NCBI GenBank assembly: GCA_016208165.1 | Contig: JACQYL010000079.1 | Coordinates: forward strand, 1 to 39,696 | Direction of reading: 5' to 3' | From: Deltaproteobacteria bacterium | GTDB taxonomy: Bacteria > Desulfobacterota > Desulfarculia > JACQYL01 | DNA length: 39,696 nucleotides | Program-made: the position numbers and the translations under genes | Shown here: piece after piece, positions 8,625 through 20,577 of the stretch | Layout: the number at the start of each line of letters is the position of its first letter | How positions within the stretch are numbered: position 1 is the stretch's first letter | The notes under the pieces: model-generated | What the model was told of the DNA's origin: nothing | Database searches by the model: none | The model's input: the letters and a program-made list of their open reading frames with translations, nothing else

Positions 8625-8699
8625 CGACGCTTTATGGCGTAGTTCTCGGAACCACCAATGAGCCCGAGCTCATGTCGAGGAAAGAGCCTCGCCGAAGCG

Positions 8700-9020
8700 G
8701 TTCCCAACAGGCTTCCGGCGGCACGGCGTGGGCCTGTTCGCGTGGACAGGCAGAGCGGAGAGATACGCGTGAAACGCGTGGTGTGCGCTCAGGATATGGG
8801 CCAGGCGGTGAATCCGGAGGGGGCCGTACTTCAGATGGAAGGGTTCATCACCATGGGTCCGGGGTACGCCCTGACCGAAGAAGTTCGTTTCAGCAACGGT
8901 CGGATCCTGGACACCAATTTTGATACTTACCGGATTCCGCGCTTTTCGTGGGCGCCCAAAATAGAAACGGTTCTGGTCGATAATACGGAGCTTCCTCCCA
9001 AAGGAGGAGGCGAACCCGCC
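8700..9020 (+). pseudogene. C-terminal remnant of a molybdenum hydroxylase large subunit
   Basis: About 95 residues read as the C-terminal part of an isoquinoline 1-oxidoreductase/aldehyde-oxidase-type molybdopterin subunit: VDRQSGEIRVKRVVCAQDMGQAVNPEG, an EGFITMG segment, NFDTYRIPR, and the active-site loop PPKGGGEPA. The frame then loses similarity right after GGGEPA, where the 3' end of the convergent cueP-like gene begins. The 700-odd upstream residues expected of the family are missing, so this is a relic and not a working gene. The open frame spans 8658-9122. Confidence 0.7.
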
Positions 9021-9029
9021 TTCATCTGC

Positions 9030-9575
9030 TTACTGGAGTTTCATTGTGGTTATGCACGTCTTGCTGTTGTCATAGGTGAGGATTACGGCAATGGCCGAAC
9101 GGCCGAGTCCTTCAATGGTTAACTTGATCGCACGGTTTCTCGGCAGCCATAGTTCCATAAAGCCGTTCCTCAGAGTGGATACGGGTTCGTCGAGGATGGC
9201 GTTGCCGTTCGTATCGACGGCTTTGACGTTAAACGTGGTTTGAGGCAGTTCCCCCTGACAGGAGGACATATAGTGGACCGCTCACGGGTGGGTGCGGTCC
9301 GCGTAGGGCGCTATGGCTACCACCATCTCGTGTTCAGGCAAGGCGACCTTCCTTGTTTCGCCGCTCTGGAATTGAAACACCACTTCTTTTGTTGTGACAT
9401 AGGTTTTCACGGGTTGCCGTTCCCAGTGCCACTGGTTGGCGAGGGCAAGCGCCTGTCGGGCGTCGAGTCCTTGAATTTGCGTTTCGATCGCGGGTTCAGT
9501 CCCTGAAAAGCAGGAGGCAGGTACGGCCGCCCATGCGATGAACGCCAAGAAAACGAGTATCATAGGTTTCTTCAT
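9030..9575 (-). CDS. cueP: CueP-like periplasmic copper protein, probable selenoprotein (in-frame TGA)
   Basis: Read through one TGA (9282-9284), this gene encodes 181 residues. A signal peptide (MKKPMILVFLAFIAWAAVPA) is followed by GLDARQALALANQW, APYADRTHP-Sec-AVHYMSSCQGEL, STLRNGFMELWLPRNRAI and C-terminal KTCITTMKLQ. This fits CueP, a periplasmic copper-binding protein known from Salmonella. From memory, CueP has three conserved cysteines (96, 104, 172). Here Sec98, Cys106 and Cys174 keep the same 8- and 68-residue spacings, so TGA stands exactly at the first of them. The same frame continues with full family similarity after the TGA, which argues against a simple truncation. AAGGAT precedes the ATG at 9575. 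The alternative is a pseudogene or sequencing error; the SECIS-like hairpin after the TGA makes selenocysteine more likely. Confidence 0.8.
9245..9281 (-). promoter_or_regulatory. Putative bacterial SECIS element of the cueP-like gene
   Basis: Directly after the TGA the RNA can fold into a lower stem GCGGU/ACUGC (one G-U pair) and an upper stem UCCUCC/GGGGGA closing the loop UGUCA. The loop starts 22 nt after the UGA and contains GU, as the E. coli fdhF SECIS loop does at a similar distance. A 7-bp inverted repeat GGACCGC/GCGGTCC also flanks the TGA itself. The fold was done by eye. Confidence 0.6.
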
Positions 9576-9928
9576 GGCGGTGGATCCTTGGTTTTGGAGA
9601 TGGGGGCGATGGTGTTAAAAGCGAAAATCGCGCCTGACCTCTTCCTATGAGAATGAGGAGAACAGGCTCACTTGTACGATATTTATTCTAAGGGACAAGA
9701 TGTCGGGTGTCAATCGTTGGCGGATCGTTTGGGGTGCAGTCCGTTGATCGGTGGGGACATCGAGGTTTCAAGAAGAACGTCGATCCTTCTATTACAAAAA
9801 GTGATCGCGCCGTGATGACGGCGTGATCTGACCTGCTTATCTTAGAAAACAAAGAGACAGTGGGTGTCCCTCTCAAAGAAATGGTTGGGGCGCATCTCCT
9901 AACGCTGCCGATCGGAAATGAGGAAACC
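9576..9928. other. Divergent intergenic region between cueP-like and molybdopterin genes
   Basis: This 353-bp spacer should carry promoters in both directions. The only structure I can point to is the palindrome at 9803-9828. No coding content was recognised. Confidence 0.4.
9803..9828. promoter_or_regulatory. Palindrome, possible operator
   Basis: The sequence consists of GATC, one base, CGCCGT, a GATG spacer, ACGGCG, one base and GATC, symmetric over 26 bp. It sits about 100 bp before the molybdopterin/msrAB gene pair and could be a regulator site or a small hairpin. No regulator can be assigned. Confidence 0.35.
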
Positions 9929-10597
9929 ATGGAAAAACGTAGAGACTTCATCCAATTTTGTATTCGATTCGTCGCAGGTGTGGGGATTTCATCCAGTGCG
10001 TTCTTGTCCTCAGCCGAGCGGCTCTACGCAAAGGCCGTCGCAAAGGTCGAAAAGATCCTGTTGCCCAACGGAACGAAACGGGACACCCTGATCCACGAGA
10101 ACCCGAGCGCATTGGATACGAGAAATCTGGAGATCACCCCGCTAGAGGATTTCCAGACCATGGGGATAACCGACCATGGGGTGGATCTGGACACCTGGCG
10201 CTTCGAGGTGGCCGGCGGCGTGAAATCGCCCCTGCAATTCACCTACTCGGAAATCCAGGAGCTGCCTTCCATCGAAAAAGACGTTCTCTTGATCTGTCCG
10301 GGGTTTTTCGCCAACAACGGCCGATGGAAGGGTATTTCGATGAAGGACTTTCTGGACCGGGTCGGCATGGAAAAGGACGTGAGCCATGTGATCTTCAGAG
10401 GGCCGGAAAGCTCGTACGAGAAAGTGGAGAGTTTCCCCATCGAGGAGGTCGTTTCGGGTCAGGTCTTTCTGGCGTATGGCGTAAACGGGCAGTCTCTCCC
10501 AAAGAAACACGGGTTTCCCTTACGCGTTGTGGCGGAGGGACATTATGGATTCGAATGGGTGAAATATGTCTACAAGATGACGTTGGAGAAGGGCTAA
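9929..10597 (+). CDS. Tat-exported molybdopterin-binding oxidoreductase (MsrP/sulfite-oxidase fold)
   Basis: The 222 residues begin with a twin-arginine-type signal (KRRDFIQF followed by a hydrophobic stretch, likely cut near LYAKA). The rest is a single oxidoreductase molybdopterin-binding domain: FEVAGGVKSPLQFTYSEIQELP, then LLICPGFFANNGRWKG with the probable molybdenum-ligand cysteine, then GYG-like LAYGVNGQSLPKKHGFPLRVVAEGHYG. The start at 9929 has GAGG six to seven bases upstream. MsrAB begins 51 bp downstream on the same strand. The MsrP enzymes of this fold reduce methionine sulfoxide in the periplasm, so a role in the same repair process is reasonable. The substrate is not proven, because the protein is shorter than typical MsrP. 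Confidence 0.78.
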   Translation: MEKRRDFIQFCIRFVAGVGISSSAFLSSAERLYAKAVAKVEKILLPNGTKRDTLIHENPSALDTRNLEITPLEDFQTMGITDHGVDLDTWRFEVAGGVKSPLQFTYSEIQELPSIEKDVLLICPGFFANNGRWKGISMKDFLDRVGMEKDVSHVIFRGPESSYEKVESFPIEEVVSGQVFLAYGVNGQSLPKKHGFPLRVVAEGHYGFEWVKYVYKMTLEKG

Positions 10598-10648: not shown

Positions 10649-11809
10649 ATGAAAACCGTTTTGTTGATGGTTGCGGTCATGGCGTTGGCGTCGCTCGCGT
10701 TCGGAGCACAATGGTTCGCCTCGAACCGGCAAGAAGCCGGCGCCGGAATGACGGAAATGAAAGCAAAGGATTCTCACCTGGAAACGGCGACGTTTGCAGG
10801 TGGGTGTTTCTGGTGCGTGGAATCGGACTTCGAAAAGGCGCCGGGCGTTGAGAAAGTGATCTCGGGGTACACCGGAGGTGAAACGAAGAATCCGACCTAC
10901 GAGGAGGTATCCGCCGGCGGAACCGGTCATGTGGAAGCGACTCAGGTATATTACGATCCGCAAAAAGTGTCGTACAAAGAATTACTAGACGTGTTCTGGC
11001 GACACGTGGACCCGACCGATCCGGACGGCCAGTTCGTGGACCGAGGACCCCAGTATCGAACGGTCATTTTCTATCACAGCGAGGAACAGAAGCGTATTGC
11101 AGAGGAATCGAGGAAGGAGCTGGATGCTTCGAATCGGTTCAAAGAGCCTGTGGTAACGGAGATCCGCAAGTTCGACGTTTTTTACCCGGCGGAGGACTAT
11201 CATCAAGACTATTACAAAACGCACCCGGTGCGGTACAAATTCTACCGCTGGAACTCGGGCCGGGACCAGTTCCTGGAAAAAGTCTGGAAGAAGGATGAGG
11301 GGGATACCATGAGTAAAGAAAAGGCCATGGCCGGTGAACATCCTTTGAGAACCGAAGAAGCGTCGAAGTATGGCAAGCCGAGTGACGAAGAATTGAGTAA
11401 GAGGCTGACTCCGATCCAATATAAGGTGGTGCGTGAGGAAGGCACCGAGCCGCCTTTCCGGAATGCCTACTGGGATAATAAGAAAGAAGGCATATACGTG
11501 GACATCGTTTCCGGCGAGCCTCTGTTCAGCTCAAAAGACAAGTACGAATCAGGCACCGGATGGCCGAGTTTTACCAGGCCGCTCGTACCCGGAAACATCG
11601 TCGAGAAAGAAGATAGGAGCTTCTTCACGGTCCGTACCGAGGTACGGAGCAAACATGGAGATTCGCATCTTGGACACGTCTTTAACGACGGTCCGGCGCC
11701 CACGGGCCTGAGATATTGTATGAACTCCGCCGCCCTTCGGTTCATTCCCAAGGAGGACATGGAAAAGGAAGGGTACGGGGAGTTCCTTAAAATCTTCAAT
11801 GAAAAATAG
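10649..11809 (+). CDS. msrAB: Exported peptide methionine sulfoxide reductase MsrA-MsrB fusion
   Basis: This bifunctional enzyme reduces methionine-S- and R-sulfoxide in proteins. Residues 1-20 are a signal peptide ([20 protein letters not shown]), so it acts in the envelope. The MsrA domain (about 45-205) has the catalytic GGCFWC (Cys53, Cys56), and the MsrB domain (about 250-380) has [11 protein letters not shown] with catalytic Cys357. MsrB lacks the zinc CxxC pairs, reading [11 protein letters not shown]. It has SGTGWPSF where Neisseria-type fusions carry a resolving cysteine (SGCGWPSF). How it is re-reduced is therefore unclear; another thiol or selenol partner nearby could serve. AGGAGGG lies upstream of the ATG. 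It probably forms an operon with the molybdopterin gene before it. Confidence 0.93.
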
Positions 11810-18297: not shown

Positions 18298-20577
18298 ATG
18301 GAACGGGAATTACATGTTGTCGGCGCGCGTTTGCCCATGCTGGATGCTGCCCAGAAAGTGAAAGGGGCCGCTCTGTTTACGGATGATCTAGTGCTTCCGG
18401 GCATGCTCCACGGCAAAATCCTGAGAAGTCCGCTTCCTCATGCCAGAATTCTAAACATCGACACCTCCGCGGCGGAAAAACTTCCGGGCGTAAAAGGGGT
18501 GGTAACGGGCAAGGAGATCCCTGACCGGCAGTATGGAATCGTGCCCATGGCCAAGGATGAATATGCACTGGCCAAGGATAAGGTCCGCTATATCGGAGAT
18601 GACGTGGCGGCCGTCTGCGCCGTGGATTCCGAGATCGCGGAAGAGGCCATCGAGCTGATCAAGGTGGACTACGAGGAACTGCCGGCCGTATTCGACCCCC
18701 TGAAAGCCAGGGAAGAGTCTGCTCCCGTGATTCACGAGGGCATCAAGTACAACACCTCCTTTGCCATCCGGAAAGAGTTCGGCGATGTGGAAAAAGCCTT
18801 TGCGGAGTCGGACGCTGTTTTTGAGGATATGTTCTATTCCCAAGCGGTGAATCACGCACCCCTCGAGCCTCATTCCGCGCTGGCCCAGTTCGATCCGCTC
18901 AACGGAGATCTCACGGTCTGGTCTTCCACTCAGATCCCGTTTTTTCTGAGAAGAAACCTGTCGAATACTCTTCAAATTCCGGAAAGAAAAGTGCGCGTCA
19001 TCAAACCCAAGGTGGGTGGAGGGTTCGGGCAGAAGATCGATATGTTTGCAAAGGATTTCTGCGCCGCCTGGTTCGCGATTCGTCTCGGCAAGCCGGTGAA
19101 GTTTACGTACGATCGGGAGGAAGTGTTCATCTCGACCCGGCAGAGACACCCGATGTATATCACGGTGAAAACCGGCGTAAAGAAGGACGGCACCATCCTG
19201 GGACAGAAGTTTCAGGCGTTTGCGGACGGCGGCGCGTACAACAGCACCGCTCCTACAATGATTGCCCTGTCCTGTTTTTTCCTCATGATTCCCTATCGAG
19301 TACCGAATCTGATTTATGAAGGCGCTCATGTCTACACGAACAAACCGGTGGGCGGCGCCATGCGCGGACACGGTATTCCCCAGGCCCGATTCGCCGTGGA
19401 ACGGCAGTTGGATATGATTGCGGAGCGTATTGGCGTCGATCCCGTCGAGATCCGAATCAAGAACAGCATTCATGCGGGGGAACCGCATTCGGGCGGGTTT
19501 GTCATTCACACGTGCGGTTTTGCGGAATCGGTCCAAAAGGCCGCCGCCGCCATCGGATGGAAGGAAAAGCGGGGCAAACTGCCTCCCGGCCGGGGCGTGG
19601 GTGTGGCCGGCGCTTCTTTTCCCAGCGGGGTCAGCAACATGAGCCACATCAGCTCCGGCGCCGTGGTTCAACTGGGCCGGGATGGAGCGGTCAACGTACT
19701 TTCCGGTGCCGCGGACATAGGACAGGGAGCGGAAACCGTGATCAGCCAGATCGTGGCTGAAGAACTCGGGGTGCCCCTCGAGGATATTCGGATAACCGCA
19801 GCGGACACGGGCATAACGCCTCTGGACCCCGGCACGTTTGGAAGCGGGGTCACGGTCAGGGCGGGAAACGCGGCGCGGCTGGCCGCCATCGCCGTGAGGC
19901 AAAAGCTGTTCCATCTGGTGGCCGATAAGCTGGAAGCCAATGTGGCCGATCTCGAGGCCAAAAACCGGAAAATCTCGGTAAAGGGTTCGCCCGACAAAGG
20001 CATGACGTTGGACGAGGCCCTGAAGACCTATCAATACGAGGATCTTCCTATGCCCATTGTAGGCAGGAGTTCGTGGATGGCGCCGGCCTCGGAACCCACC
20101 ACGTTGTTCCAGCAGGATGGAAATTTCGCACCCAACTACTCGTTTATGACGCAGGCCGCTGAGGTCGACGTGGATCTTCACACGGGCAAAGTGAAGCTCT
20201 TGAAGATGGTGACGGCTCATGACTGCGGCCGGGCCATCAATCCGATGCTCGTCGAAGGCCAACTCGAAGGGTCCGTGGTGGGCGGCATGGGACAGGCTCT
20301 GTATGAGCATGTGATCGTAGAGAATGGACAGGTCATGAATCCGTCGTTTCTGGACTATGGTTTTCCCACCTTTATGGAAATGCCGGTCATCGAAGCGATC
20401 GAAGTGGAGACCGACGATCCCATCGGTCCCTTTGGGGCCAAAGAATCGGGTGAAGGCACCCAGCTGTCCCCGGCGCCGGCCATAGCGAACGCGATTTACG
20501 ACGCCATTGGCGTGGATTTTATGGAACTTCCCATCACTCCGGAAAGAATCCTGGATGCCCTGGAAGAGAAATCGTAG
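18298..20577 (+). CDS. hcrA: 4-hydroxybenzoyl-CoA reductase-type molybdopterin subunit (alpha)
   Basis: This 759-residue catalytic subunit is close to the known HBCR alpha length. An N-terminal aldehyde-oxidase/xanthine-dehydrogenase a/b hammerhead domain (KVKGAALFTDDLVLPGMLHGKILRSPLPHA) is followed by the molybdopterin-binding half: GGGFGQK, GGAMRGHGIPQARFAVE, IGQGAETVISQIVAEELG. The C-terminal FGAKESGEG carries the conserved active-site glutamate. The MRGHG motif is as in HBCR. The stop is three bases before a strong two-hairpin element. Substrate assignment to 4-hydroxybenzoyl-CoA rests on the cluster insertion in the partner subunit and on the aryl-CoA genes nearby; a related hydroxyaryl- or hydroxycyclo-CoA substrate is possible. 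Confidence 0.88.
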   Translation: MERELHVVGARLPMLDAAQKVKGAALFTDDLVLPGMLHGKILRSPLPHARILNIDTSAAEKLPGVKGVVTGKEIPDRQYGIVPMAKDEYALAKDKVRYIGDDVAAVCAVDSEIAEEAIELIKVDYEELPAVFDPLKAREESAPVIHEGIKYNTSFAIRKEFGDVEKAFAESDAVFEDMFYSQAVNHAPLEPHSALAQFDPLNGDLTVWSSTQIPFFLRRNLSNTLQIPERKVRVIKPKVGGGFGQKIDMFAKDFCAAWFAIRLGKPVKFTYDREEVFISTRQRHPMYITVKTGVKKDGTILGQKFQAFADGGAYNSTAPTMIALSCFFLMIPYRVPNLIYEGAHVYTNKPVGGAMRGHGIPQARFAVERQLDMIAERIGVDPVEIRIKNSIHAGEPHSGGFVIHTCGFAESVQKAAAAIGWKEKRGKLPPGRGVGVAGASFPSGVSNMSHISSGAVVQLGRDGAVNVLSGAADIGQGAETVISQIVAEELGVPLEDIRITAADTGITPLDPGTFGSGVTVRAGNAARLAAIAVRQKLFHLVADKLEANVADLEAKNRKISVKGSPDKGMTLDEALKTYQYEDLPMPIVGRSSWMAPASEPTTLFQQDGNFAPNYSFMTQAAEVDVDLHTGKVKLLKMVTAHDCGRAINPMLVEGQLEGSVVGGMGQALYEHVIVENGQVMNPSFLDYGFPTFMEMPVIEAIEVETDDPIGPFGAKESGEGTQLSPAPAIANAIYDAIGVDFMELPITPERILDALEEKS

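Follow-up and report, generated by a model that had tools for sequence, protein, structure and literature searches.

A probable selenocysteine-encoding gene family of the copper protein CueP

A reading frame related to the copper protein CueP is divided by a TGA in the 39,696-nucleotide stretch of deltaproteobacterial DNA analysed here (the window). Is the gene broken, does the UGA terminate a short product, or does it encode selenocysteine (Sec)? A preliminary description of the locus favoured the last answer. Combining profile searches, structure prediction and comparison with relatives, we conclude that the window gene very probably belongs to a family of Sec-encoding CueP genes whose product is a functional selenoprotein. 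Insertion of Sec at the UGA is very strongly inferred from the comparison of sequences. A copper-redox role of the protein is somewhat favoured by analogy.

A CueP reading frame with one internal TGA

The frame begins with MKKPMILV, reads THPUAVHYMSSCQGEL around the TGA and ends with SKTCITTMKLQ; the TGA at residue 98 is its sole internal stop (Table 1). The read-through protein scored 113.7 bits against the Pfam CueP profile PF21172 (cut-off 27) and 139.7 bits against the NCBIfam CueP_fam profile NF038094 (cut-off 60), as expected of the otherwise intact CueP-like gene with a single in-frame TGA that had been described. It missed the cut-off of 195 for the metallochaperone CueP subset NF038095, with 109.3 bits. 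We therefore file the gene under the CueP family and not under that subset.

Table 1. Features of the cueP locus in the window.
Feature	Position	Strand	Basis or remark
sec-cueP gene, 181 residues with Sec98, ATG start, TAA stop	9030..9575	-	Read-through frame over the PF21172 and NF038094 cut-offs
Sec98 codon, in-frame TGA	9282..9284	-	20 distinct genes have TGA here; 10 relatives encode Cys
SECIS-like hairpin UCCUCCU-GUC-AGGGGGA, 7-bp stem, GUC loop (equally a 5-nt UGUCA loop with a U-A closing pair)	9250..9266	-	Alignment A1 and synonymous conservation
Cys106 codon TGT (9260-9258), followed by the codons of Gln107 and Gly108; together they make up the loop and 3' arm of the hairpin	9252..9260	-	TGT in 20/20 Sec genes
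Cys174 codon, third conserved cysteine	9054..9056	-	C174 invariant in the 30-sequence alignment A2
Hydrophobic N-terminus MKKPMILVFLAFIAWAAVPASCFS, probable export signal	9504..9575	-	Low-confidence part of the AlphaFold2 model
Tentative sigma-70-like promoter TTGACA-17-TAGAAT, upstream of cueP	9685..9713	-	Consensus scan: 1 found, 0.6 expected by chance
Oxidoreductase molybdopterin-binding protein	9860-10597	+	Divergent, upstream of cueP
Fused MsrA-MsrB	10649-11809	+	Divergent, upstream of cueP

In an alignment with Salmonella CueP (PDB 4GQZ), U98 pairs with the Cys of the RTHPC motif, and Cys106 and Cys174 pair with the remaining two cysteines. This alignment confirms that the TGA falls at the first of three conserved cysteines and that the spacings of 8 and 68 residues to the other two are kept. 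The AlphaFold2 model of the Sec form, Sec-CueP (pLDDT 88), has 4GQZ as its best and sole convincing match in the PDB (Foldseek E 3.5e-16; TM 0.87 by target length and 0.76 by query length). Among 30 aligned sequences (alignment A2, Sec scored as Cys), T95, H96, C/U98, H101, C106 and C174 are invariant.

The UGA could instead be a true termination signal, or be partly read through with another residue such as Trp, leaving a short regulatory form. A 97-residue ORF does stop at the TGA, and hairpins after stop codons are generally able to promote read-through. However, most of the copper-site domain is missing from the 97-residue product, the homologues in the 30-sequence alignment have Cys and never Trp at position 98, and the genome contains selB and tRNA-Sec. 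We regard termination or unspecific read-through as highly improbable. Recoding of TGA throughout the genome was also considered and is ruled out, as TGA is the ordinary stop of normal genes elsewhere in the window. Other frames with in-frame TGA codons in the window had no protein-family support as selenoproteins.

TGA genes among relatives and the hairpin after the UGA

Of 395 genomes from the window's phylum searched with the Pfam profile, seven contain CueP, and in six of these the gene has exactly one internal TGA. Further TGA genes came from the classes to which two of these genomes belong and from the Deltaproteobacteria MAG Ww484 (G395, two copies), and a phylum search centred on G395 returned the same genomes again, with only that MAG's own copies being new. 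One class gave ten new TGA genes, and every CueP found in it has the TGA. In total, the 20 distinct CueP genes with TGA at codon 98 come from 19 genomes, which represent 14 families of a single phylum. None of the 20 has a TGA elsewhere in the frame, and in each the frame stays open downstream of codon 98. The expectation that homologues would carry TGA or Cys at this codon, with no frame-destroying change behind it, is thus borne out.

The two copies in Ww484 are divergent (L020/L036 and L040), and L040 is 67% identical to the window gene. The frame of another Sec-CueP, L062 in genome G1327, is broken near the N-terminus (open frame of 140 residues), which may be a frameshift error.

In the window's own class, CueP was found in only one of 63 genomes, a sporadic occurrence that suggests loss or horizontal transfer. 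Whole-genome profile searches covered the window's phylum alone. Outside it, 22 plasmid records contain CueP relatives of less than 60% identity, and the five of these that were inspected all encode Cys at the TGA position.

Seen by itself, one TGA in a MAG would be compatible with a pseudogene in which a nonsense mutation or a sequencing error had turned the Cys codon into TGA. Broken CueP fragments are indeed known in two other genomes (L051 in G961 and L052 in G953), from a family with both Sec and Cys forms, where the gene appears to be decaying. That 20 divergent genes, spread over 14 families, share the identical TGA codon argues against this explanation, and for the family as a whole we reject it on these genes. 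Two of the TGA genes lie in G1227 and G1327, single-contig assemblies of about 7 Mb each, which makes sequencing error untenable. Downstream of the TGA, dN is lower than dS (for example 0.22 and 0.85 for L001/L062); judged by these substitution rates, the protein stretch after the UGA is under purifying selection. With the hairpin conserved as well, a pseudogene has very little probability.

The preliminary description also pointed to a hairpin with a GU-containing loop 22 nt after the UGA that resembles a bacterial SECIS. A hairpin whose loop begins at that distance is present, and the support for it is comparative. UCCUCCU-GUC-AGGGGGA or close variants are kept in all 20 TGA genes. In alignment A1, 97.9% of the pair cells are standard and two pairs have changed on both sides: U-G to G-C in L055, through replacement of both Ser and Gly by Ala, and C-G to U-A in L054. 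One-sided intermediates occur in L056 and L063, and L020, L056 and L063 each have a single stem mismatch. The covariation rests on two sequences, and its score was reached by 12 of 500 shuffles, a control that was only moderately passed.

Codon choice gives a stronger signal. The hairpin spans Ser-Ser-Cys-Gln-Gly-Glu codons, which can be written in many ways, and among 112 five-codon windows the one at +6 to +10 ranks first in excess synonymous identity, with 0.50 compared with a background of 0.07 (sd 0.07), about six standard deviations above it. Besides the uniform Cys106 codon, the 19 TGA genes with Ser105 all write it as TCC, and the 19 with Gln107 all use CAG. The comparison indicates that selection acts on the hairpin. 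Its folding energy against shuffles was not significant (z -1.3 to -1.7), so the argument for the hairpin rests on the comparison.

As criteria for a bacterial SECIS we used a hairpin 16-37 nt downstream of the UGA, a G within the first two positions of the loop and an energy of -7.5 kcal/mol. The window hairpin lies within these limits at -8.3 kcal/mol. The geometry is found in 19 of the 20 TGA genes, and 15 of the 20 also pass the energy limit as bare hairpins. The U-GUC-A shape, the stem length and the spacing agree with the published bacterial SECIS model (PMC13188914), whereas the bare hairpin energy is above -7.5 kcal/mol in five Sec-CueP genes. The resemblance to a SECIS thus extends to most of the TGA genes. 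An Rfam scan at the locus gave no match. A second structure, formed by the 7-bp inverted repeat GGACCGC/GCGGTCC, encloses the UGA itself (9275-9301, minus strand) and could modulate read-through; it occurs in the window gene only and not in the other loci, and was left out of the count.

Selenocysteine machinery and Sec/Cys exchange

A selenoprotein gene presupposes the means to insert Sec, and the preliminary description had proposed a check for this machinery. The outcome was mixed. The window genome has selB (384 bits) and tRNA-Sec (77 bits; also called by ARAGORN, with anticodon TCA). The sole selA found in the assembly (contig C48:84608-85842, loci L002 and L003) is split by an out-of-frame gap, with its start and main part in different frames. 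Profile positions 51-99 are missing from it, about 50 residues that include the INATGVVLHTNLGR segment of relatives. The interruption may be real damage or an assembly gap or error. With the only selA interrupted, Sec synthesis in the window organism is not assured.

This raises the alternative that the Sec-CueP family is real and the window organism has lost Sec synthesis through the selA deletion, so that its copy is no longer made at full length. The lost segment and the shifted frame are what such a loss would leave. However, selB, tRNA-Sec, the cueP frame and the hairpin show no damage, misassembly may account for a gap in a single MAG contig, and five other Sec-CueP genomes have an intact or nearly intact selA. 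We consider loss of Sec synthesis unlikely, though it deserves more weight than the explanations by pseudogene or termination. More widely, selB is over the cut-off in eight of the nine Sec-CueP genomes tested, which were found before the last ten, and the exception is 81% complete. Genomes with the Cys-CueP of the separate clade described below also have selB; Sec use as such therefore does not separate Sec-CueP from Cys-CueP genomes.

Ten relatives have Cys at codon 98. Eight form a separate clade in the tree, and none of these eight genes has the hairpin. The other two, L043 (TGC at the site) and L047 (TGT), are nested among the TGA genes. L043 shares its genus with the TGA gene L049 and contains the complete hairpin; L047 retains the stem, with a GCC loop in place of GUC. 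The nested Cys genes with their hairpins look as expected of recent Sec-to-Cys reversions, and would make a clear case of Sec-to-Cys replacement with a fossil SECIS. The Cys and Sec states on the tree need three changes. These would be one gain of Sec and two reversions, provided that the TGA genes form one group, a grouping that appears in the best tree with weak support; the placement of L054 in the tree is tentative.

Proposed function and related proteins

In Salmonella, CueP is one of the major copper proteins of the periplasm; it has a putative Cu(II) reductase activity and is required under anaerobiosis (PMC8966772). It receives Cu(I) from ScsB/ScsC, and its function is lost in the C104S mutant (PMC13201067). 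The Salmonella Typhimurium protein (4GQZ) and Sec-CueP share the fold and the TH-x-C-xx-H-x4-C and C-terminal TC motifs, and the periplasmic location of the former is likely to apply to the latter. They differ in that Sec replaces the first Cys, and they are 31-32% identical. The closest named relatives outside the phylum, Cys-CueP proteins of Deinococcus plasmids (L066, L070), are up to 46% identical and have the same motifs; their genes have TGC at the site and lack such a hairpin.

Based on these similarities, a working cycle can be proposed. SelB bound to the UCCUCCU-GUC-AGGGGGA hairpin would bring Sec-tRNA(UCA) to the UGA, and the ribosome would continue through to the TAA. The product, presumably exported, would display a site made of His96, Sec98, His101, Cys106 and Cys174. 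By analogy with Salmonella CueP, this site would most likely capture copper and support Cu(II)/Cu(I) cycling under low oxygen, the selenolate acting as a copper ligand, as the attacking redox group or as both. Sec98 may then form a selenenylsulfide with a nearby Cys, which a periplasmic reductase of the CcdA/TlpA type, the probable partner, could regenerate. A selenol in this position may change copper affinity or redox behaviour.

We favour copper binding combined with a redox role and re-reduction because of the function of Salmonella CueP, the invariant His/Cys site and the CcdA, TlpA and redoxin genes near some family members. Genes for a CcdA-type membrane protein and a TlpA-type thioredoxin adjoin cueP in both L074 and L080. 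In L082, cueP is followed directly by a TlpA-type gene in the same orientation, and L077 has a gene for a redoxin-family protein nearby. CueP adjoins thiol reductases in some loci only; its neighbours in the window encode MsrAB and molybdopterin enzymes.

The same redoxin, TlpA, CcdA and MsrAB genes would also suit a protein in which Sec98 is no copper ligand and Sec-CueP works as a periplasmic selenol oxidoreductase or oxidant scavenger, and selenoproteins of unknown role are mostly thought to be redox proteins (PMC13188914). Against a purely selenol-based role, the CueP metal site is invariant in its flanking histidines and its two other cysteines, and plasmid-borne Cys relatives in Deinococcus, Shewanella and Corynebacterium adjoin copper or heavy-metal genes. 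We regard this role as possible but rather doubtful. The copper-redox role stays the better supported proposal. Its fullest form is that Sec98 is a native copper selenolate ligand in a periplasmic chaperone or Cu(II) reductase, gained once in the phylum and present across many of its lineages, with two Cys reversions leaving a fossil SECIS. In that complete form it is tentative, and we put it close to, but short of, an even chance.

That no Sec-CueP had been described, as the preliminary description held, agrees with the literature: a 2026 review (PMC13188914) that counts 119 families of prokaryotic selenoproteins includes neither CueP nor PF21172 or NF038094, and a literature search with subscription papers and supplements outside its scope found no relevant paper joining CueP with selenocysteine. 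The same review lists other metal handlers with predicted Sec, namely CopZ-type (2Fe-2S)-binding proteins (cd10141) and the SO_0444 family Cu/Zn efflux transporter (NF033936), both unrelated to CueP. Since metal-handling selenoproteins of other families are thus already listed, Sec-CueP would be a new selenoprotein family and a new CueP variant, not a new kind of system. It would add a copper protein to the known prokaryotic selenoproteins and explain why annotation would treat such genes as broken or truncated. Naturally occurring Sec and Cys forms of a small, structurally known copper site would also make the benefit of selenium at a metal/redox centre directly testable.

On the opposite strand, the 3' end of cueP is overlapped by a 154-residue ORF (8658-9122, plus strand). 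It matches only residues 209-281 of the 283 of MoCoBD_2, a molybdopterin domain of the xanthine-dehydrogenase type, and is likely to be a remnant; the molybdopterin domain pair is present in full at 18298-20577.
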